DNA of 64,000 nt, taken from a virus. A program made the position numbers and the translations under genes. The notes below the pieces were generated by a model. The model worked only from the letters and a program-made list of their open reading frames with translations. It had not been told where the DNA came from and did no database searches. The DNA lies in the IMG/VR virus record IMGVR_UViG_3300025870_000004, positions 1 through 64,000 of that record, one strand, 5' to 3'. Positions 1 through 39,344 of the stretch are shown here, piece after piece (position 1 is the stretch's first letter; each line of letters starts with the position of its first letter).

Positions 1-3000
1 AGTTCCCGCAGCAAAGTTACCAGATGCGTCACGAGCAACAATCGCAGAACCCGTGTTCGCGTTTGTCGCAGTAGTCGCAGAGTTGTTAACCTTACCCGCA
101 GTCGAAATCGTTGCGAGTTTTGTATCAGCAATTGCGGCACTTGCGTTGATGTCAGCGTTAACAATTGAACCAGCCGTAATCGCAGCACTAAGTGTTACAT
201 TACTCGTTCCGTCAAATGATACGGCCGAAGCGGTGATGTCACCACTAATTGAGAAGTCCTGACCCGAATCAAGGGCATTGGTTGTGAGGGATTTACCTGT
301 TACATCACCAATCAGATTACCTTCAAAGGTTTCTGCAACCAGTGTTGCAAGACTGAATGAAGGGTCAGCAGCGTTAATAGTTCCTGTCGGTGTTGAGTCA
401 TACTCATCAAGGAGTTTCCATTTCTCGTCAGAGATATCAAAGTAGAAACCCATATGGGTATAACCGACACCTGATGTGCCTGTGTTTCTATTCGTGAAGA
501 AACCAGTATCAACATTTACAGGTGACGCAACACCTTCCCATCTATCACCTGAGTCGTGACCCGTGGTTGCACCGAACTCAACCGAAATATTATCAGTTGA
601 ATGAATTTCCTGTGCGTTACCAGTGATTACAACTTTTGTAAGTATAGGTGAGGCAAACGCACTATCATTTCCAAGTGCAACAGCAAAGGTATCAACACCA
701 CCCGCACCAGTTCCTACACCATCAATACGAACATAGTAGGTCTGTGCTGCTGTCCCTGTAAAGTGACCAGAGAAGAAGGCATCGTCAAGACCCGTTCCTG
801 CGAATGTCGTTCCTGCTTCACCAATCGCATCACCTTCATTGAGACGATAGAATGGCGCACCTTGTGTCACATTAGATTGACCCACAGTGGTCTGACTACC
901 CAGAATGGTAAGGTTACCATCCACCTGTAAGTTTGCACCAATATGTGCAGATTGTGTAACACGGAATGAGTTGACCGAGTGATTCTCTCGGTTGACCATC
1001 ATTATACCGTTGTCGGAATCACCAGATACAACAACCCAACCCATACACATCGGGAAGTTTGGATATGCTGGAGGTGTATTTGTTATACCACCCGCTGTTG
1101 CGGCAGATACAAAGAACTGTTGGTCAGCACTTAGACTTGCAGTATTAACGTTGGTTAATTGACCCTGTAGCAACAACATACCATAACTGTTGTTCGCAAT
1201 GTCGTGTGCTGCAAGACCCTGTGCGTTGTATGCAGAAGAACTAGATGCATCCGAAAGTGTGACAGTCGGAACATTTTGTGCGCCCGAGGTGTAGTTACCA
1301 CTGAAGTAAAGAGCTGAACCTTTCTTTATTACCGAACCACTGTTGTTGAACACTCTTTGATGTTCTTGTGTGCCCAGTTCAATGGGAAGTCCATTGATGT
1401 CATTATAATAGTTTAGATTCTTGCGTTCATTATCATAGAACAATAAACCTTCACTATATGGTTGATGATTAGAGAATGTTGTTGTATCAAACTGAACATT
1501 CAGAAGTGATGCGGAGTCTGCTACGAGTTGTGTCGTTTTCAGTTTATTCTCAACACGCAAGTCACCGAAGTGTTCGGTCGAACCATCAACAAGAATAACA
1601 CCGTTATTTGAGTCAGCGACAATAACGCGACCAATATGTTGTGGGAAACCAGTATCAACCGTTACAGTTGTTTCTGTTACGACGCCCGCAGAGTCAGGAG
1701 ACAAGAACAGAACATTACCTTCTGTCATACCACCTGTGTTGACATTACGAACCAGACCGTAACGAGTTACCCAACCATTCGCGTTATTTGGAATATCCAT
1801 AGTCGCAAGACCGAATGACTTACCTGTGGTAGAGGTGTTCGCTCTTGCTTTTGTGACAAGCGGGTGACCGTCAGTTTCAGTTCCAGAGATATATACTGCA
1901 TCACCGTTGCTGATTGCCGCACCAGTTTCGTTTTTCACATACAAGAACATTTCTTGACCGATGTTTAGATTTACATCTGGATTAGAATTTTGTGGTGTGC
2001 TAAGTCTAACCGATAAACCTTTGTCGCGGGCAGAGTCGAAATACAATGAACCCGCAGTCTGTGAGAATGCAGTGGTCTGTGGAATAAATCGAATGCCCTT
2101 TGATACCGCACTATCTTGAGTGACCTTACCAAACGTGACATCATTTGTCGTTCCGACTGCCTGACCAATACTGATTTGACCAGAAGCACTATCATATGTA
2201 ACACCTGTTCCAGATTGTAAAGCATTTCTTGAGAGTGTGACAAGATTTGCGGAGTCCACATTGAACTCACCAGTAGATGAGTTGTATACGAGACCTTTAT
2301 TTCCAGTCAGATGCGCTCTTACTTCAGATGCAGATGGGCCAGTGTATGTGAATACACCCGTTGAATTGTTATATGATAAAGAACCATCGTTGCCAGCATC
2401 TGTTACAGATATTAATGCTCTAACTCCAGCGGAATCAATCTCAGCTCTTGATATTGAGAACTCACCAGTTCCACTATTGTATATCAGGTCTCCGCCCGCA
2501 GAGAACATACCTTTAACATTAGCGGAGTCAATATTGAATTCACCATTTGTTACTGACAAACCTTTGTTTGCGGTCAGATGCGCTCTGACTTCAGATGGAG
2601 ATGGGCCAGTGTATGTGAATACACCAGTCGCACTATCGTATATGAGTGACCCATCACCACCCGCATCATTTACAAGCAATGATGCCTTTGCATCACTGTC
2701 TGCCCTCGCAGTGGTGTAATAGAGATTAGAACCTTCTGATAGGTCAGAGGTAGACTTGGCAGTAAACGCCGCATCAATGTCTGAGTCAACTCTTACTGTG
2801 GTGTAATAGAGGTTTGTTCCTTCAGATACGTCTGTGGTTGATTTCGTAACAAACGCTGCATCAATGTCTGAGTCAACTCTTACTGTGGTGTAATAGAGGT
2901 TTGTTCCTTCAGATACGTCTGTGGTTGATTTCGTAACGAGTCGAATATCAAAGTCACTATCTGCTCTTGCGGTAGTGTAGTAAAGATTAGAACCTTCTGA

Positions 3001-5676
3001 TAGGTCAGATGTAGACTTCGCAACAAACGCTGCATCAATATCTGAATCTACGCGAACTGTCGTGTAGTAAAGATTTGTTCCCTCTGCAACATTAGTTGTT
3101 GTTTTGGTAGCAAGTCTTACATCAAAGTCACTATCCGCTCTTGCAGTAGTGTAATAGAGGTTTGTTCCTTCAGGTAGTTGACCCGTATTTGCATCGCCGA
3201 GGTCACTGTCAAAGTTTGCCTTTGTGTATACACTCTCTACATCAAATGAGAACTGACCCGCAGCACTATCATATGACAGGTCACCCGATGCAGAGAACAA
3301 GTTACGAATTGTAGTTGTTGTCTGTGCATCCACATTATCAAAACGAATGTTCGTAATGGTCGCAGAGTCGAATGTTGCCTGACTTCCTGTCAGTTGAGTG
3401 TTCGCAAGGTTTGTAATCGTTGCACTATCAACTGTCGCATTTGTGATGGTCGCAGTGGTCGATTTTATAGTTGTAATATCAGCACTATCGATAGTCGCCT
3501 GTGAACCAGTGAACTGAGTGTTCGCAAGGTTTGTAATCGTCGCGCTATCAAATGATGCTGAGTCGGTATGAATAGATTGAGCAGTCAGAACATTGAAACT
3601 TGCACTATCAATTTGTGTCTGTAATCGTGTCGCAAAATCACTATCAAAGTTTGCTTGACTGTAGATTTGTTCAACATCAATCGAGAAACGACCTGTTGAA
3701 CTGTCGTATGTCATATCTCCGCCAGCACTAAAGTGTGCGCGAACCTCACTAGACGATGGCCCCGTGTATGTGAATACACCAGTCGCACTATCATAAGACA
3801 GTGAACCATCACCACCCGTATCGTTGACAAGGAGAGATGCCTTCGCATCAGAGTCAGCACGAGCAGTTGTGTAATAGAGGTTTGTGCCTTCCGCAACATC
3901 AGAAGTTGTTTTGGTTGCAAGTCTTACATCAAAGTCACTATCCGCTCTTGTGGTCGTATAGTAAAGATTTGTTCCCTCTACAAGATTACTCGTTGTATAT
4001 GGGTCGAGTGTAATCGTTGTGAGGAATGTTGCACCATCAGCAGTGCCGATGGAGAGATTGCCGTTTGCAGAGTCGAATGAGAATGAGGATACACCCGCAA
4101 CCGCGACTGAACCCGCACTGTCAAGTTGACCCTGTGCGTTTACTGTGAAGACAGGAATCTGAGATGCAGAACCATATGTCGCTGCGGTAACACCCGTGTT
4201 CGTTATAGAAATCGTATCTGTCGAACTATCGTAGGTGATACCCGTGCCACCGTCAAGGGCTGCACCTAAGTCACTGTCGAAATTAGATTTTGTATAGACT
4301 TGTTCTACATCAAAGGAGAACACACCTGTTGAACTATCATAGGACAAGTCACCAGCAGAGGAGAAGTATCCACGAATACTTCCGATAGATGTTGTATCAC
4401 CCAACGCACTATCAAAACGACCACGAGTATAATACAGGTTAGTCCCTTCAGTGATATCACTTGTCGTGTTGGTCAGTGTGGTGAACTTCAGTGTTCCAAT
4501 ATTGGCACTATCAAAGGTTGCCTGTGAACCAGTGAGTTGAGTGTTTGCCAGATTGGTGATAGTTGCAGAATCAATTCTCGCTTGATTTGAGTATAGTTTG
4601 TATACTTGTTGTTCACCTGTAGATGAGGAGTCAACCAGTCTGTGCCATGAACCACCATGTGCAAAGTATCCCCGACCCGTTGCGTGAACGTGTGCAAACA
4701 TACCATGATAGGTAGACGCACTTGGAAGGTCACCCTCTGTGTTGTATACGTTTCCAAAGAGAATCTTACCAGTTGTCTGGAATGTCTCTGAACCAATTGT
4801 CCAGTAGTCATTTGACTCGTCCCACAGAAGTGACTTGTTTGTATCATCACCACGTTCAATCTCGATACCCGCATCTTCACTGGCTGAACCAGTTGCGTTA
4901 GAGTTCAGAACAATGGTGTTGTCTGCAAGTTGGATTGTCTCTGTGTTGACAATCGTCTGTGTTCCCGATACAGTTAGGTTACCACCAATCGTAAGATTAG
5001 AACCAATCGTAGTAGACCCACCAACAGCGAGACCATTTGTGATTGTGGAACTATCTGCGGATGTTCCCCCAGTGAAAGTCTGCGTTCCAGATACAGTCAG
5101 ATTACCAGCGACATTCAGGTCACTGTGGAATGTTTCCGCAATATCTGTTCTCGCGACATCGGAGTCGTTGAAACTTAATATACCTTCCGAACTATCGAAT
5201 GATAGAATGTCACTGTTTGTTGTGGACAGTTTGATACTGACAGCAGTCTTACCACCATCACTATCAATAATGACAAAGTTACCGTTACTGTCTTTTAAGT
5301 CGAGTGTCCCCAGAGTGATTGTATTTCCTGAAAGGAACAGGTCTCTCCACTTATTGGTAGAACTGCCGAGGTCATATGCCTCGTTACTATCTGGTATAAT
5401 AGAGCCAGTAAATGTCGTGTTGGTAAAAGCAAAGGTATAATCGTTATTATCACTATCAAATGTGACAGTGACATTATCGTCACCTCTGAGATTGGTTACT
5501 TCGTAGTTACCAGTCGAGCTCTTGTATGCCAGAATTGAACCATCAGATTCATTTGCGGTTACATCCACACCACCCAGATTGGTAATGGCAAAAGCACCAG
5601 CGGTAACTCTCTTGACAGGAGTTCCTACTTTTAGTTTTTTGATTTTAATTGTAGGGTCTTGATAAATAATTTTCAT
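1..5676 (-). CDS. Giant repeat-rich virion structural protein, tail fibre-like (3' end outside window)
   Basis: An open frame runs from ATG at 5676 to the left edge, giving 1892 codons with no stop, so the C-terminus is missing. The N-terminus begins [20 protein letters not shown]. The middle carries many 29-residue units of the type [15 protein letters not shown] and further units [22 protein letters not shown], typical of extended trimeric phage fibres. The visible end (DASGNFAAG) resembles lambda/T5-type fibre repeats. Asp-Ser pairs are very frequent. It sits at the distal end of the baseplate block, consistent with a tail or side fibre. It could instead be a neck or whisker fibre. I cannot assign a T4 number. 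Structural role likely, exact role unknown. Confidence 0.8.
2690..3200 (-). repeat. Tandem 87-bp (29-codon) repeats inside the giant fibre-like gene
   Basis: Several consecutive units encode YYTTxRxDSDxDxxxxxKxTxxxxEGTNL. Two adjacent copies starting at 2771 and 2858 are identical over about 80 bases, which implies recent duplication or gene conversion. Related single units recur near 3850-3990 and 4420-4460. Confidence 0.85.
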
Positions 5677-7528: not shown

Positions 7529-7961
7529 CTTCTAACGATTCCTTCACAATCATCATAGCATATAGATTTACTTCGGGAATCGACTTGGAGCGTCTCAACT
7601 TAGATTTCAACAGACGATTCTTGGACGCTTTGATTTCAGGAATCTCGAATGTTTCAAGTTTATACTCAAACAACTTTTCAAGTTTCTTGGCTCGTTCATG
7701 CTCAAGTTTCTTTTGTTTGTCAAGTTCGGCTTCTGCCTGTTTTTTTTCAAGACGTTTCTTAGTTGAAGCTTCGATTGATTCGTCACCAAGAAATTCAATG
7801 ACCTCATTGAACATTTCGTTTGGTGTTCCATCGTCATTCAATTTATACAGTTTGTGAACTTGACGGATTTGTTTGTTATCCACCTGTTCTTCACTAATCG
7901 CATTGAGGATTTCCTTTTTAGGTGTTTCCCAAAATGCATTATCTAACCATGTTCTTGCCAC
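7512..7961 (-). CDS. Conserved phage protein with coiled coil, unknown function
   Basis: 149 aa, predicted GTG start (GTGGCAAGAACA) with GGAG seven bases upstream. N-terminal MARTWLDNAFWETPKKEIL is followed by a long Lys/Glu-rich helix (about residues 65-105) that should form a coiled coil, and a basic C-terminal segment (KNRLLKSKLRRSKS). No catalytic motif. It stands between repeat-fibre genes and the glycosyltransferase, and may be a fibre assembly factor, but nothing in the sequence proves it. Confidence 0.6.
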   Translation of the reverse strand: MARTWLDNAFWETPKKEILNAISEEQVDNKQIRQVHKLYKLNDDGTPNEMFNEVIEFLGDESIEASTKKRLEKKQAEAELDKQKKLEHERAKKLEKLFEYKLETFEIPEIKASKNRLLKSKLRRSKSIPEVNLYAMMIVKESLEDEHIK

Positions 7962-8002: not shown

Positions 8003-10387
8003 TTATGCAGTTCTTACATACAAGGTGTAAGTCTCAATCGTTGATGTTCCAGACCCAATCGTTGTCCCAACATAGTTACCCACGAAGTTACCCGCAAAGT
8101 TTCTTCCGTAATTTGATGTTCGTGTTCTAACATAAGCTCTTGCGTAGTTCCCCTCAAAGTTGCCAGTAAAGTCAGAAGTATATTGACTCGCTCGTGTTCT
8201 AGCATAAGCTCTTGAGAAGTTACCAGCAAAGTTGCCAGCAAAGTCACCAGTATATTGACTTGTCCGTGTTCTAGCATAAGCTCTCGAATAGTTACCCGTA
8301 TAGTTACCAGCAAAGTCACCAGTATATTGACTTACTCGTGTTCTTTGATAAGCTCTTGAGAAGTTCCCCGCATAGTTACCAGTAAAGTCTCCAGTATATT
8401 GACTTGTTCGTGTTCTAGCATAAACTCTTGCGTAGTTCCCCTCATAGTTACCAGCAAAGTCTCCAGTATATTGGCTTGTTCGTGTTCTTTCATAAGCTCT
8501 TGCGTAGTTCCCCTCAAAGTTGCCACCAAAGTCACCAGTATATTGGCTTGTTCGTGTTCTTTCATAAGCTCTTGCGTAGTTCCCCTCATAGTTACCAGCA
8601 AAGTCGCCTACATAATTACCAAGATAATCTGTTGCCCGAGTTCTTGTAAAGTTTCTCGAATAGTCACCCGTGAAGTCACCCGCAAAGTTACCCGCAAAGT
8701 CACCAACAAAGTTACCTTGAAAATTTCTTGTCCAGTTTCTCGTAAATGGAAATCCCTGTAGACTTACTCTAGTGTAATTAACTTGTCTATTTCTAGTAAA
8801 AAGGTATATGCCATAGTTACCAACAAAGTCGCCAGTAAAGTCACCTAAATACCCCGTAAACCTCAAATAGTCACCCGTGAAGTTACCAAGATAATCTGTT
8901 GCCCGAGTTCTAGTTGAAGTTCTCGTTGAGTCTCTCGTTGAATTTCGTGTATATGTTCTTGAGTAGTCGCCAGCAAAGTTGCCTACATAATTACCACCAT
9001 AATCTGTTGCACGAGTTCTAGTTGAGGTTCTTGTAAAGTTTCTCGAATAGTTACCAGTAAAGTTTCTTGAAAAGTTGTTGGTGCTGTTTCGTGTCGAGGT
9101 TCTTGTAAAGTTTCTCGAATAGTTACCAGTAAAGTCTCTTGCAAAGTTGTTGGTGCTGTTTCGTGTCGAGGTTGTTGTAGATGTTACTCTAGAATAGTCA
9201 CCCTGAAAATTTCTTCCGAAGTTGTTGGTGCTGTTTCGTGTCGAGTCTCTTGTAGATGTTACTCTAGTATAGTTACCCGCAAAGTTTCTTGCAAAGTTGT
9301 TGGTGCTGTTTCGTGTCGAGTCTCTTTCAAAGTTTCTTGAATAGTTACCCGCAAAGTTTCTTGAGAAGTCGTTGGTGCTATTTCGCGTTGAGGTTCTTCC
9401 AAAGTTTCTTGAATAGTTACCCGCAAAGTTTCTTGTATAATTAGCTGTAAATGTATTAGTGCTAGTAGATAAAAAGTTTCTTGAATAGTTACCCTCAAAG
9501 TTTCTTGAATAGTTACCCTCAAAGTTTCTTGATGATGTGCGAGTGTAATCTACATCACTTACATTATTGCGCGTATCTGTTGCTGTGCCTCGTGCAGCCC
9601 ATGTTCCTGTGTCTGTTGGCGCACCTTGAGCAGACGAGCGAAGTTGATATGTTCCAACTTTAGTTGTCATAATACGATTCGGGGCGCCTTTGCCAGCCTC
9701 GTCTTTAAAATCGCCAAAGGTATATTTAATCTCAGCATCGGTCATCTCTTGAAGACCTTGAAATGCGCCTAGCTTCCCCGCCGACCTTTTTATATGCACT
9801 GGTCTAACAGTAGTAGGAGCAGACATGGTTTGTCTTCGGTAGAGATTGTATGCTATTGAAGTTCCATCAGTCCTTGTGTCACTGAACACATTTGAAACGT
9901 GTGTGACATAGTCACCAAATGCGACGCCTGTGCCCAATCGAAATGTGCCTGGATATTCAGATGTCATGACACGGGATACAAGTCTATCCGTTAACGTTAT
10001 CATCTCACTATCGCTAAACTCATGAATCTCTGGTTCACCTGAGTTATCGACAAACTCGACGGTTGGTCGGTAATCATCGTAAAAATTGACAGGGGCGCCA
10101 AACGGTGATCCATTTTGTTGGTATAATGTTGTAGTGGTTGTTGTGACTGTAAGTGAACCGTGGTCACCTACATTCTGGTCATAGACTGTATCTGAGAATG
10201 AACCAACAGTTGTGCCGCCAAAGAAAGGGGCGGCGCTGGTTGCTAAATTGCTCGTGGCGTCGCTGTATGCAGCGTATAATTCATTGAGTCGCAATCCCAA
10301 CTGATAAGCGGAATAGTTCTCATCGGTGGATGACATCTCTTTGAGGTCGCCGTTTGTCCCGTCAAGTCTTAGTGGTGTAGTTCCCAT
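8003..10387 (-). CDS. Repeat-built fibre-like protein A (24-residue repeats)
   Basis: 794 aa. Residues 1-280 form a head domain shared with the next gene upstream (SSTDENYSAYQLG; TDTRTDGTSIAYN; GTWAARGTATDTR). Residues about 290-765 are tandem units of 24 residues such as GNYSRNFTRTSTRNSTNNF, changing to GNYARAYERTRTSQYTGD toward the C-terminus. The tail IETYTLYVRTA is identical in the neighbouring paralogue. Long, charged, Asn/Arg/Tyr/Thr-rich repeats suggest an extended fibre. A head domain plus repeat shaft plus conserved cap fits a baseplate-attached fibre, but no family name can be given. The start ATG is 8 bases past CATAAATA. Confidence 0.75.
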   Translation of the reverse strand: MGTTPLRLDGTNGDLKEMSSTDENYSAYQLGLRLNELYAAYSDATSNLATSAAPFFGGTTVGSFSDTVYDQNVGDHGSLTVTTTTTTLYQQNGSPFGAPVNFYDDYRPTVEFVDNSGEPEIHEFSDSEMITLTDRLVSRVMTSEYPGTFRLGTGVAFGDYVTHVSNVFSDTRTDGTSIAYNLYRRQTMSAPTTVRPVHIKRSAGKLGAFQGLQEMTDAEIKYTFGDFKDEAGKGAPNRIMTTKVGTYQLRSSAQGAPTDTGTWAARGTATDTRNNVSDVDYTRTSSRNFEGNYSRNFEGNYSRNFLSTSTNTFTANYTRNFAGNYSRNFGRTSTRNSTNDFSRNFAGNYSRNFERDSTRNSTNNFARNFAGNYTRVTSTRDSTRNSTNNFGRNFQGDYSRVTSTTTSTRNSTNNFARDFTGNYSRNFTRTSTRNSTNNFSRNFTGNYSRNFTRTSTRTRATDYGGNYVGNFAGDYSRTYTRNSTRDSTRTSTRTRATDYLGNFTGDYLRFTGYLGDFTGDFVGNYGIYLFTRNRQVNYTRVSLQGFPFTRNWTRNFQGNFVGDFAGNFAGDFTGDYSRNFTRTRATDYLGNYVGDFAGNYEGNYARAYERTRTSQYTGDFGGNFEGNYARAYERTRTSQYTGDFAGNYEGNYARVYARTRTSQYTGDFTGNYAGNFSRAYQRTRVSQYTGDFAGNYTGNYSRAYARTRTSQYTGDFAGNFAGNFSRAYARTRASQYTSDFTGNFEGNYARAYVRTRTSNYGRNFAGNFVGNYVGTTIGSGTSTIETYTLYVRTA
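8040..9540 (-). repeat. 72-bp coding repeats in fibre-like protein A
   Basis: The gene is a tandem array of 72-base units (24 codons). Copies near 8171 and 8243, for example, share the stretch encoding ARTRTSQYTGD almost unchanged. Two subfamilies are visible, one at about 8040-8620 and one at about 8900-9540. Confidence 0.85.
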
Positions 10388-35028: not shown

Positions 35029-35505
35029 ATGGCATATTCTGGACGATATAAACCGAAAAATCCAAAGAAGTATAAGGGTGACTACACAAAGGTCATCTAT
35101 CGTTCTTTGTGGGAGAAACACGCCTTCAAGTGGTGTGATAACAACTCAAATGTGATTGAGTGGTCAAGTGAGGAAGTGGTCATACCATATCTATATGAGG
35201 TTGACCATAAGTATCATCGTTACTTCATGGATTTGAAAATTAAATTCAAAGATGGTAGAGTCTTTCTAATTGAGATAAAACCAGATGCACAGACACGACC
35301 ACCGACAGGTCAACGCAGGACGAAACGATATATCACCGAAAGTCTGACTTATGTTAAGAATATGAATAAGTGGAAGGCAGCCAGTGAGTATGCAAAAGAC
35401 CGTGGTTGGAGTTTTGCTATATGGACAGAGAAGACCGAACCATTGAAATCAATGATACCGAAATCAACAAAACAACTAAAACCTTTCAAAAGACGTAAGA
35501 AATAA
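35029..35505 (+). CDS. gp4: Head completion protein gp4 (nuclease-like)
   Basis: 158 aa (T4 gp4: 150). It has IYRSLWEKHAFKWCDNN, VDHKYHRYFMDLKIKF and RVFLIEIKPD, giving the Glu / Asp / Glu-x-Lys layout of a TnsA-like endonuclease fold. T4 gp4 is added to filled heads before tail joining. The C-terminus is strongly basic (KPFKRRKK). It is divergent from gp48 and opens the rightward structural block. I see no late promoter consensus on this strand just upstream of it. Confidence 0.85.
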   Translation: MAYSGRYKPKNPKKYKGDYTKVIYRSLWEKHAFKWCDNNSNVIEWSSEEVVIPYLYEVDHKYHRYFMDLKIKFKDGRVFLIEIKPDAQTRPPTGQRRTKRYITESLTYVKNMNKWKAASEYAKDRGWSFAIWTEKTEPLKSMIPKSTKQLKPFKRRKK

Positions 35506-35519: not shown

Positions 35520-36104
35520 ATGAGTAACTTATTCCAAAGACTGGAACTGCAAGCATTCCGTGCTGGTATTACACCACGCACAAAGGAATCGCGTGAATGG
35601 TTTCGTAAGAAAGCAAAGAACCTTCGTTCTGTCAACCGTGAAGCGTTGATGCAAGAGAAGGAACTGAATCGTGGTGGTAAACAAATCATTGGTTCGATGC
35701 AGATGTTCTTCTATGACCCGAAGACCAAAGACACCCTTCCATACTATGATGCGTTTCCTCTGGTGATTGTGGTTGGCCCTGCGGAAGGTGGGTTCTATGG
35801 ATTGAACCTTCACTATCTTCCACCACTTCTTCGTGCGAAGTTCCTTGACTCTCTTCTGGATATCCAGTCCAGTAAGACAAGTGATGATTCCAAGTTCAAT
35901 ATCACCTATAAGAGATTGCAGGCTGCAAGTAAGTTCAAGTATTTCAAACCATGTTTCAAACACTATCTGAATGACCATGTGAAGAGTAAGTTCGCAGAAG
36001 TCCAAGCACCAGAGTGGGAAATCGCAACCTTCCTACCAACCGCAGACTTCCGCAAGAGAAACTCTTCCAAAGTGTTCTCAGATTCAAGACGGATGATAGG
36101 ATAA
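35520..36104 (+). CDS. Conserved T4-like virion or head-tail protein, unknown (gp2 or gp3 candidate)
   Basis: 194 aa. It has EWFRKKAKNLRSVNREALM, then MQMFFYDPKTKDTLPYYDAF and GFYGLNLHYLPPLLRAKFLD, a well-conserved marine T4-like pattern. In T4 the DNA end protector (gp2) and tail completion protein (gp3) are neighbours of gp4, so it may serve one of those roles; I cannot confirm from residues. Basic N-terminal half, no membrane segment. The stop overlaps the next ATG (TAATG). Confidence 0.6.
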   Translation: MSNLFQRLELQAFRAGITPRTKESREWFRKKAKNLRSVNREALMQEKELNRGGKQIIGSMQMFFYDPKTKDTLPYYDAFPLVIVVGPAEGGFYGLNLHYLPPLLRAKFLDSLLDIQSSKTSDDSKFNITYKRLQAASKFKYFKPCFKHYLNDHVKSKFAEVQAPEWEIATFLPTADFRKRNSSKVFSDSRRMIG

Positions 36105-36826
36105 TGGTATTTCGCGTAGACGATTTTAGAGCGCAAGTAAGCAGAGGTGGTGGGTTCGCATCACAGAACATGTTCCGTGTTCAACTGCCTCGTATTCAGG
36201 GTGCGCCTCTGGGTGGTAACGACCCAAGAGAATTAGACATGTTGTGTCGTGTAACTAGTTTGCCAGGCCGTCAGGTTTTGTCAACGGACAAACAGATTGG
36301 AACAGTTCTAACCAAAGTTGCAAACGGATATGCAGTCACAGACCTAAACATGACATTCTATTGTATGAACGACTATGGCATTCGTAAATACTTTGAGACA
36401 TGGCAAAACCTCGCACACAATCAACAAACAAAAACGATTGGGTATTTCAAAGAATATACCAAACCAGTTGTCATTCAACAACTGAAGAAGGGTGTGTCAT
36501 TCCCAATCAAAAAGAAGAAAGTTTTTGATACTGGTAGAATTCCTAGTGGTATTCGTAATCGTCTCCCTCGTATTGGGCCACTTGACCTTGCACAGGGTGA
36601 GATTGATTTGAACGGTATCTTTGGTGACCAGATTGCATACAGTTGTGTTCTTGAGAATGCATACCCAACAACACTGAATGAAATTGCACTAAATAATGAA
36701 ACACAAGAAGTTGTGGAAGTGTCAGTCCAATTGTCTTACAAGGACTGGCGTTCCGAACAAGGAGACATCTCCAGTGGTCTGGTTGAAGGTCTCGCAGGCG
36801 AATTGATTCGTAGAGTATTAAGGTAA
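36104..36826 (+). CDS. gp54: Baseplate tail-tube initiator, gp54-like
   Basis: 240 aa from ATG at 36104. An in-frame start further upstream lies inside the preceding gene and is not needed. The protein has MLCRVTSLPGRQVLSTDKQI, YAVTDLNMTFYCMNDYGIRK and YFETWQNLAHN, typical of the tail-tube fold family shared by gp19, gp48 and gp54. T4 gp54 (320 aa) sits on gp48 and starts tube polymerisation. gp48 lies just across the divergent promoter region. A tail tube paralogue is the main alternative. Confidence 0.7.
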   Translation: MVFRVDDFRAQVSRGGGFASQNMFRVQLPRIQGAPLGGNDPRELDMLCRVTSLPGRQVLSTDKQIGTVLTKVANGYAVTDLNMTFYCMNDYGIRKYFETWQNLAHNQQTKTIGYFKEYTKPVVIQQLKKGVSFPIKKKKVFDTGRIPSGIRNRLPRIGPLDLAQGEIDLNGIFGDQIAYSCVLENAYPTTLNEIALNNETQEVVEVSVQLSYKDWRSEQGDISSGLVEGLAGELIRRVLR

Positions 36827-36841
36827 TTATGGAGTTAAATT

Positions 36842-37549
36842 ATGGCACTACCTAAGTTAAATGAGTCGATAAAATATGAGATGGAGATTCCTTCATCAAA
36901 AAATATTGTAACATATCGACCGTATCTTGTCAAAGAAGAGAAAATTCTTCTCATGGCATTTGAGTCACAAGACCAAAAACAAGCAATGAGAGCAATGGTT
37001 GACACAATTGTTGCTTGTGTGTTTGAAGATATTACACCATCACAACTTACGACATTTGATGTTGAATATATGTTCACACAAATCCGTTCTAAGTCTGTCG
37101 GTGAAACATCTACAGTAAACGTAAAGTGTCAAGCAATTGATTGTGAAGAGACCGAAGAGGTTGAAGTCAATCTATCTGAACTAAAAGTTGAAGGTGAGGA
37201 TGTTAGTAATGTTATTGAACTGACACCAACAGTTTCAATTGAAATGCGATACCCTTCATACAATACCTTTGTTGATAACTGGAGAGAAGATATCAATGAG
37301 AGTGAGTTTGGGTTCGTCATGATGGAAGATTGTATTTCAGCAATTCTGACCGAAGACGAAAGATATAACGCATCTGATGTTTCGAGGAAAGAAATGTCTG
37401 AGTTTATTGACTCGATGACAAACTCACAATTTCAAAAGGTGGGTGAGTATCTAAGAACAATCCCATCTATGAAAAAAGATGTTGAGTTTACATGTAAGTG
37501 TGGACACGAGAATAAAGTAACACTGGAGGGCCTTCAAGATTTTTTTTAG
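36842..37549 (+). CDS. gp26: Baseplate hub / tail assembly chaperone gp26
   Basis: 235 aa (T4 gp26: 208). It has SKNIVTYRPYLVKEEKILLM and a MRYPSYNTF segment, typical of the T4_baseplate (gp26) family. Two Cys groups, KCQAIDCEE near residue 100 and TCKCGHENK near 222, form a probable zinc site. The gene ends GAT TTT TTT TAG. A run of eight T precedes the stop, and the -1 frame stays open for 65 more codons, so a longer gp26-gp51 fusion is likely. Confidence 0.8.
   Translation: MALPKLNESIKYEMEIPSSKNIVTYRPYLVKEEKILLMAFESQDQKQAMRAMVDTIVACVFEDITPSQLTTFDVEYMFTQIRSKSVGETSTVNVKCQAIDCEETEEVEVNLSELKVEGEDVSNVIELTPTVSIEMRYPSYNTFVDNWREDINESEFGFVMMEDCISAILTEDERYNASDVSRKEMSEFIDSMTNSQFQKVGEYLRTIPSMKKDVEFTCKCGHENKVTLEGLQDFF
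37540..37547 (+). promoter_or_regulatory. Candidate -1 frameshift slip site (T8)
   Basis: T TTT TTT T immediately before the TAG stop of gp26. Slipping one base back changes TTT TTT TAG into TTT TTT TTA and enters the gp51-like frame. Confidence 0.65.
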
Positions 37550-37743
37550 TATGCCTCTCGCATGACAATTTGATAAACCATTTTGAAACTAACTTTGCAT
37601 TAATGCAACATTTCAAATACTCATTATCAGATTTAGAATTCATGTTACCGTGGGAGAGAGAGGTTTACTTGTCAATGTTAAAAGAACATCTGAAGGAAGA
37701 AGAAGAACGACTGCGTAAACAAGAACAACAAATGAGAATGTAA
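37546..37743 (+). CDS. gp51: gp51-like extension of gp26, expressed by -1 frameshift
   Basis: 65 codons in the -1 frame after the slip site (CLSHDNLINHFETNFALMQ, then LMQHFKYSLSDLEFML and PWEREVYLSML). There is no ATG in this frame near its 5' end; the first is at 37603 (MQHFKY) and would drop 19 conserved-looking residues. The charged helical C-terminus is KEEEERLRKQEQQ. Its stop overlaps the tape-measure ATG (TAATG). Position and helical nature resemble gp51 and the T part of the G-T tail chaperones. A separate short protein from 37603 is the alternative. Confidence 0.65.
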   Translation, partial: LVCLSHDNLINHFETNFALMQHFKYSLSDLEFMLPWEREVYLSMLKEHLKEEEERLRKQEQQMRM

Positions 37744-39344
37744 TGGCAGAAGCAACAATAACAGACCTAATCCTCACGATTCGTGAAGAGAATGAAAAGG
37801 GTAGAGATGAGACGAAGAAGAATACGTCTCAGATTATTACTCTGAACAAAACATTCTCAGATTACTTCACTATGTTGAAACGTCAAGCGTTGGATGTAGA
37901 AGAATCAAGACGGGATGCTGATAAAGGTATGTCAACTGGTGGAACTGTTGCGGCAAAAACACCTAAATCCGATTCATCTGGTGGGGGATTTCTTGGTATG
38001 GTCGCCGCTATTCTTGCAGCGGGTGGCGCACTTGTATTTGGTTTTGTTGAAGGTTTTGTTAATGCAACAAAAGATATAATCAAACTCATACGAATCATAT
38101 TCAAACCAATTACAAAACCAATCGTTGCAGCGGTTCGTCTATTAATGGGCGCATATGCAAAGGGGATAAAAGCTTTAATTAACATTACCAGATTGGGTAT
38201 GTTCAAAGCTTTTGGTTTGGGTGTTGATGGTAAACCCGTTGTTGCAACAAGTAAATTTATGAAAGGACTCCTAAAAACACCTAGTGTTATTGGACAAGCG
38301 TTAAATGGTCTTGGACGTGCTTTTTCATTTCTTGGTCGTGAAGCTTCAAAACCATTTAAGATGTTATTCTTTGCTACACAAGCAACAGGTAAACTTATTT
38401 CAAATGTTTTATTTAGACTTAGATTTCTATTCAGTAAACTGACTGCTCCACTCAGAGGTATATTCACTAGCACAAATCAATTCATCAAAGATATAAAAGA
38501 GTTGGGCACAAGATTCGGAGCAGTCTTCAAAACAGCTCGGGATGGAACAAAATCCGCTGGGGTGATAGGTCAGTTTTTCTCTGGTATCGGTCAAACATTT
38601 AAGACTATTGTCAGCGCGGTCAAACCATTACTAGGTGTTTTCCGTCTCATTGGTCGAGTAGTATTCTTTCCACTAACTATTATCATGGGTATTTTTGACG
38701 GTATCAAGGGTGCAATGGCCGGAGCGCAAGAAGAAGGGATATTAGGTGGCATTCTTGGTGCAGTAGGTGGTATCTTTGGTGGACTGATTGGTATGCCTCT
38801 TGACCTATTGAAATCCGCAGTGGCGTGGATTGCTGGTAAAATGGGATTTGAGAATGTAGAAGAAACATTGAAATCATTTTCGTTCAAAGATATGTTCTTG
38901 AATCTGTTTATCGGTATCGCTGGTATGATTAATACCTTCGTTGATAATATCACATCATCGTTTCAAGATGGCATCGGTTCGGGTTTGTCTATGGTTTTAA
39001 CATATTTGAAGAGAATGCTTTTATTCCCTGCGGCTGTCGCCGCTGGTGGCGTTGCGGCATTAGCGGCCGCATTGCCAGGCGGTAAATCTCCGTCTGAAGC
39101 ATTTTCAGATGCATTTAATGCCACCTTCAAACTTGGCGAAGGTAGTGTTCTTCCATCACCATCATCTAACACATCGGGTAGTGAAATCAGTTCTCAAGTA
39201 AATGATAATGCATCGACACGAAATGGTTTCCTTGCTGGACAGTCATCAACACAAGTCATAGACACGAGTCAACAGAACAATGTCAACATAACTCAGACTC
39301 AAGATGTTGCTGCAACCGACGATACCGACAAGAAGCCTAATTAA
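37743..39344 (+). CDS. Tape-measure-like tail protein (gp29 position)
   Basis: 533 aa. The N-terminal helix (residues 1-70) is charged. Then there is a Gly/Ala hydrophobic segment (FLGMVAAILAAGGALVFGFV, about residues 84-105), a long helical body rich in Lys/Arg and Phe, a Gly-rich membrane-like stretch (about 320-355) and a second one near 430 (AAVAAGGVAALAAALPGG). The tail ends with NNVNITQTQDV. Such hydrophobic stretches plus helices, directly after the gp26/gp51 pair, fit the tail-length ruler (T4 gp29, 590 aa). Confidence 0.65.
   Translation: MAEATITDLILTIREENEKGRDETKKNTSQIITLNKTFSDYFTMLKRQALDVEESRRDADKGMSTGGTVAAKTPKSDSSGGGFLGMVAAILAAGGALVFGFVEGFVNATKDIIKLIRIIFKPITKPIVAAVRLLMGAYAKGIKALINITRLGMFKAFGLGVDGKPVVATSKFMKGLLKTPSVIGQALNGLGRAFSFLGREASKPFKMLFFATQATGKLISNVLFRLRFLFSKLTAPLRGIFTSTNQFIKDIKELGTRFGAVFKTARDGTKSAGVIGQFFSGIGQTFKTIVSAVKPLLGVFRLIGRVVFFPLTIIMGIFDGIKGAMAGAQEEGILGGILGAVGGIFGGLIGMPLDLLKSAVAWIAGKMGFENVEETLKSFSFKDMFLNLFIGIAGMINTFVDNITSSFQDGIGSGLSMVLTYLKRMLLFPAAVAAGGVAALAAALPGGKSPSEAFSDAFNATFKLGEGSVLPSPSSNTSGSEISSQVNDNASTRNGFLAGQSSTQVIDTSQQNNVNITQTQDVAATDDTDKKPN

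Follow-up and report, generated by a model that had tools for sequence, protein, structure and literature searches.

In Escherichia coli, the -1 frameshift signal of dnaX combines the heptamer A AAA AAG with a Shine-Dalgarno (SD)-like element about 10 nt upstream and a strong hairpin downstream. Among long-tailed phages, G-T frameshifting in the tail genes is conserved 'except T4', according to a review (PMC5009743). In T4, gp26 and gp51 are listed as hub assembly chaperones, of which gp51 is called essential and of unknown function, being required and yet not present in the particle (PMC3004832). According to PMC10885494 and PMC12846349, a role as tail assembly chaperones was assigned to T4 gp26 and gp51 by Vladimirov, Gautam and Davidson (2022, Virology 566:9-15). 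The former article, citing the same work, mentions T4-like phages in which one short and one fused long gene take the place of frameshifting. In the GenBank record of phage Konradin, both gp26 and gp51 carry the name 'tape measure protein assembly chaperone'. A chaperone locus with a conserved GTTTTT is described for the Pakpunavirus Adele and the Vandenendeviridae (PMC12846349). The main idea pursued here, that the T4-type proteins gp26 and gp51 are tail assembly chaperones, is already published, and we count it as such because Vladimirov et al. are cited in this sense in the two articles named above. The present analysis adds to it the conservation of the arrangement across marine lineages, an SD-like GGAGG element, the apparent loss of the T run after the gene was split and a seemingly widespread mis-annotation.

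We analysed a window of 64 kb taken from a viral record of 92,686 bases, that of a marine T4-like phage. Its plus strand carries a gene block with a head closure gene of the T4 gp4 type (35029-35505; phrog_218, E=1.2e-56) and a DNA end protector gene of the T4 gp2 type (35520-36104; phrog_429, E=2.6e-52). A tail-tube-family gene of the gp54/gp48 initiator type (36014-36826, plus strand; phrog_45 tail tube, E=3.5e-35) lies directly 5' of a gp26-like gene (36842-37549, plus strand), which encodes the putative short form of a tail assembly chaperone of 235 aa. This protein matches phrog_150 (E=7.5e-59) and PF12322 (E=1.1e-56), the latter with 192 bits against a curated cut-off of 24.5; T4 gp26 and gp51 themselves score 215.6 and 177.5 bits with the same family. 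On the same strand follow the -1 frame extension, predicted to form the C-terminal end of the long chaperone, with 65 codons and a TAA (37546-37743; phrog_634, E=4.7e-24), and an ORF of 533 aa (37743-39344), so that the gene order is tail-tube-family gene, chaperone gene, tape-measure-like gene. The 533-aa ORF is called tape-measure-like on account of its position, its size and four hydrophobic segments; its matches to tape-measure PHROGs are weak (E about 0.006-0.01), and we found no clear homology to T4 gp29 and none to the tape measure of phage Cr30. A search of NCBIfam matched nothing meaningful. Elsewhere in the window, a minus-strand ORF (8003-10387) encodes a 794-aa protein in which short repeats, NFAGNYSR and TRTS among them, make up most of the length; it may be a fibre or an adhesin of repetitive type.

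As stated in the original prediction, the gp26 frame ends directly after a run of eight T (37540-37547) that is flanked by GA and AG and is read as GAT (from 37538), TTT, TTT and TAG (37547-37549). A slip of -1 on the heptamer T TTT TTT at 37540-37546, which stands in exactly the register that such a slip requires, would make TTA at 37546 the next codon and lead through 65 codons to the TAA at 37741-37743, with QDFFLVCLSHD as the predicted junction peptide. The stop of the extension overlaps the ATG of the 533-aa ORF at 37743 (TAATG). The window's other homopolymer of eight bases (7740-7747) was inspected as well and set aside: it lies inside an ordinary ORF of the minus strand, and nothing there points to a frameshift.

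Related loci were sampled from IMG/VR together with annotated phages, and removal of near-copies left 60 non-redundant loci. The conserved T run for which an alignment had been proposed proved to be general: an in-frame T TTT TTN stands near the gp26 stop in 161/161 scored loci (TTTTTTC 93, TTTTTTT 62, TTTTTTA 5 and TTTTTTG 1) and in 60/60 of the non-redundant ones (31, 25, 3 and 1, in the same order), and the gp26 genes concerned have no further in-frame T6N at any of 13,961 other codon positions. The gp26 stop shifts by one or two codons among lineages while the register of the heptamer is constant. Moreover, the codon supplying the first T varies between GAT, AGT, GCT, TCT and AAT (five codons, four amino acids) yet always ends in T, which argues that the DNA itself is conserved, beyond the Phe-Phe that it encodes. 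The heptamer is retained at about 24-32% protein identity in Ochrobactrum phage OC, Cr30 and phiM9, and likewise in BUCT608 (Menderavirus), ZPAH1 (Ishigurovirus) and Va3 (Schizotequatrovirus), the last two belonging to the Straboviridae, the family of T4; for phiM9, Cr30 and the phages of these three genera the protein identity is 26-32%. A gp26 homologue lacking the T6 heptamer (CTT TTT GCG TAATG) was found in Vibrio phage K469 (L179, 2902-3905), where it adjoins no tape-measure gene and precedes a small ORF that starts with an ATG of its own.

Next to the heptamer, an SD-like GGAGG is located 10 nt upstream (37525-37529, plus strand), with no start codon at the usual distance from it in the window. 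It recurs at the same spacing in relatives, as GGAGG in 23/60 loci and as GAGG in another 15/60. The Glu codon within this element is GAG rather than GAA in a ratio of 38:10, compared to 136:323 elsewhere, in both main clades alike, although the p-values for this bias are too small because the sequences are related. The codon preference points to the GGAGG as a probable stimulator of frameshifting, as in dnaX. Directly after the gp26 stop, a small hairpin with a 5-bp stem (UAUGC/GCAUG) and a 5-nt loop is predicted with some uncertainty (37550-37564, plus strand). As a conserved downstream stimulator such a hairpin is not supported, with only one covarying pair and with the inner pair broken in 12/22 sequences.

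The conservation of the extension, suspected from a single sequence in the original prediction, could be quantified. In 133 pairs of marine loci, over 40 codons, the median dN/dS was 0.15 in the -1 frame versus 1.1 and 3.1 in the other two frames; as judged from these ratios, the extension is under purifying selection, and this in no frame but -1. The conserved part sets in two to three codons past the slip (LSHD, ALLH). Apart from loci cut by a contig end and locus L082, which has one further one-base break within the extension, the -1 frame is open across the extension in all listed loci. At four loci (L004, L003, L177 and L180), a stop-start overlap (TGATG or TAATG) in the extension frame was observed at the gp26 stop besides the slippery heptamer, so that these loci may in addition produce a free C-terminal protein. 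In the window, neither ATG nor GTG precedes the conserved part, in agreement with the earlier description of a frame that has no start codon at its 5' end.

The extension could nevertheless be a small gene in its own right (gp51) that is never fused to gp26 and is translated either from a start codon within its own frame or through stop-start coupling. Many public cyanophage records annotate it in this way, the window offers a TTG at 37570, and an ATG overlaps the gp26 stop (TGATG/TAATG) in four or five distant lineages (Cr30, phiM9, BUCT608, Va3 and K469). The TTG is, however, the sole start candidate in the extension of the window, lies eight codons in and has no SD sequence. An independent, conserved ATG with a ribosome-binding site for the gp51 frame, which the original prediction had named as speaking against frameshifting, is absent: the complete conserved extension can be started from an ATG, GTG or TTG in only 6/60 non-redundant loci and not in the other 54/60, and the codons of these three kinds that occur somewhere 5' of the NF motif in 29/60 loci are chiefly internal TTG. 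Annotators were accordingly forced to begin inside the extension, as in C48C1 (L190, 3783-3887), where the annotated extension begins halfway and half of it is missing, or to omit it from the public annotation, as in S-WAM1 and ACG-2014d (L194 and L195). A separate gene also leaves the T run and its register unexplained, and T4 gp51 is the fused protein in one ORF. We consider this explanation very improbable, while in Cr30, phiM9, BUCT608 and Va3 reinitiation at the stop-start overlap could yield an additional, free C-terminal part.

Slippage of the polymerase rather than of the ribosome would generate a -1 frame mRNA and the same protein products, and eight T, as present in the window, are long enough for it. 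Against such transcriptional slippage, 35/60 non-redundant loci have just six T, the codon register of the run is invariant, which polymerase slippage does not require, and an SD-like element at the dnaX spacing suits ribosomes; we hold it to be highly unlikely. A sequencing artefact or a decayed gene might be suspected from the homopolymer at the frame break and from the additional break in L082, but the same break recurs in many independent contigs and isolates at about 26-97% identity, and the extension is maintained by selection. This suspicion, which we give practically no weight, is already refuted by the comparison of independent genomes. By contrast with these three explanations, we regard it as very likely that one gene encodes two tail assembly chaperones, a short and a long form made by -1 frameshifting in the manner of lambda G/GT. 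The conserved heptamer, the start-less and selected -1 frame and the position between a tube-type gene and a tape-measure-like gene all fit this reading, as had been proposed for the window at the outset.

The relation to T4 was addressed with profiles built without T4 sequences. The profile of the marine zero-frame protein finds T4 gp26 (E=4.4e-22) and T4 gp51 (E=2.1e-6), and the extension profile matches the C-terminus of T4 gp51 (residues 207-245, E=1.4e-6; 93.6% probability over 46 columns in a profile-profile comparison). The fused profile is colinear with residues 63-245 of T4 gp51 (E=1.7e-14), and T4 gp26 (E=2.1e-26) terminates at the same point as the short form. Because T4-free profiles match in this way, the comparison identifies T4 gp26 as the short form and T4 gp51 as the long form, composed of a gp26-like domain and the extension in one ORF. 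The suggestion that T4-type hub assembly factors are tail chaperones, though not new, is thereby supported by homology. The name gp51-like, given to the extension in the original prediction, is justified in so far as phrog_634, which bears the name 'baseplate hub assembly catalyst' (gp51), is matched by the extension at residues 59-120, as is the end of phrog_150. The match is confined to the second half of phrog_634, however, and T4 gp51 corresponds to the whole fusion.

Genes 26 and 51 lie on opposite strands in T4 and in tandem in Klebsiella phage KP15 (L186, 3001-4295), where gp51 and gp26 follow each other on one strand, possibly an earlier state of the split. The T6N heptamer is present at the junction in 0/6 of the two-gene phages checked, and gp26 of T4 and of Marfa retains the Phe-Phe coded as TTC TTT. 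In an unrooted tree of the gene family, each of three groups is set apart by a single branch: the frameshifting genes (support 100/96), the gp26 paralogues (support 94/72) and the gp51 paralogues (support 100/99). We infer that frameshifting preceded the two-gene split, since it occurs in two genera of the Straboviridae and in several other families. At locus L175 (2501-3255), a gp51-type gene is divided over two ORFs (2501-2860 and 2887-3255), by either a sequencing error or a real frame break.

The AlphaFold2 model of the window gp26 (pLDDT 89.3) gave 101 Foldseek matches in the PDB, none with a significant E, and among the best 50 of these 101 only 2ob9 (HK97) and 3fgx combined a notable probability with a low rmsd (probability 0.63-0.72, rmsd 1.8-4.6, E about 1). 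Both structures are grouped among the tail assembly chaperones (PMC9603447); with E about 1, the modelled match is no more than suggestive of a tail assembly chaperone fold like that of HK97 gp13. In the model of a T4 gp51-type protein (pLDDT 90.5), the elements follow one another in a similar order and four C-terminal helices are added; no chaperone was among its best 50 Foldseek matches in the PDB. Matches in BFVD comprised many gp26 proteins and gp51 of phage ZZ1, and the gp26 profile matched no PDB sequence.

In the mechanism that we propose, the majority of ribosomes would terminate at the TAG at 37547, which yields the short form of 235 aa. A minority, probably assisted by the GGAGG 10 nt upstream, would slip by -1 on T TTT TTT and continue for 65 residues, to a long form of 300 aa. 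We infer the slippage itself, its rate and the binding partners of the two forms. If the two forms act like lambda gpG/gpGT, the domain common to both would coat the tape measure protein, the extra C-terminal helices would recruit tube or hub subunits, and both forms would depart before the tail is completed. In the T4-type Straboviridae, two paralogues supply the same two products, gene 26 the short form and gene 51 the long, frame-fused one. Because the TAATG overlap in the window has no clear SD sequence of its own, translation of the tape measure may itself depend on frameshifting, which would then govern more than the ratio of long to short form, and a next start is found near the extension stop in most relatives too. 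That tape measure synthesis needs frameshifted ribosomes, which would tie tape measure and long chaperone one to one, is a speculation that we consider rather doubtful.

Slippage is marked in none of the annotated records inspected, which present the extension as a gene by itself, truncate it or lack it altogether; this suggests that in many cyanophage records a spurious stand-alone 'gp51' gene is listed or the extension is missing. In this light, the wider T4 superfamily would obey the tail-gene frameshift rule, the exception of T4 amounting to a two-gene split with loss of the T run, and T4 gp26 and gp51, which are poorly understood, gain a testable common role.

Compared to T4 gp26/gp51, the locus shares homologous short and long forms and differs in its layout, with one gene and a slippery site here, whereas T4 has two genes, one on each strand, and no slippage. 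The slip site is T TTT TTN, from which that of lambda differs. With E. coli dnaX, it has in common an SD-like element that precedes the slippery heptamer by about 10 nt, whereas the heptamer is T TTT TTN and a conserved hairpin was not found. No sequence similarity to lambda gpG/gpGT was shown, and the first domain is longer here (235 aa); the likeness lies in a short and a frameshifted long form, a position 5' of the tape measure and a start-less frame (PMC5009743). Finally, the locus belongs to another phage family than the Adele locus, with which it shares a poly-T slip site, an open -1 frame 5' of the tape measure and a case argued by comparison (PMC12846349).
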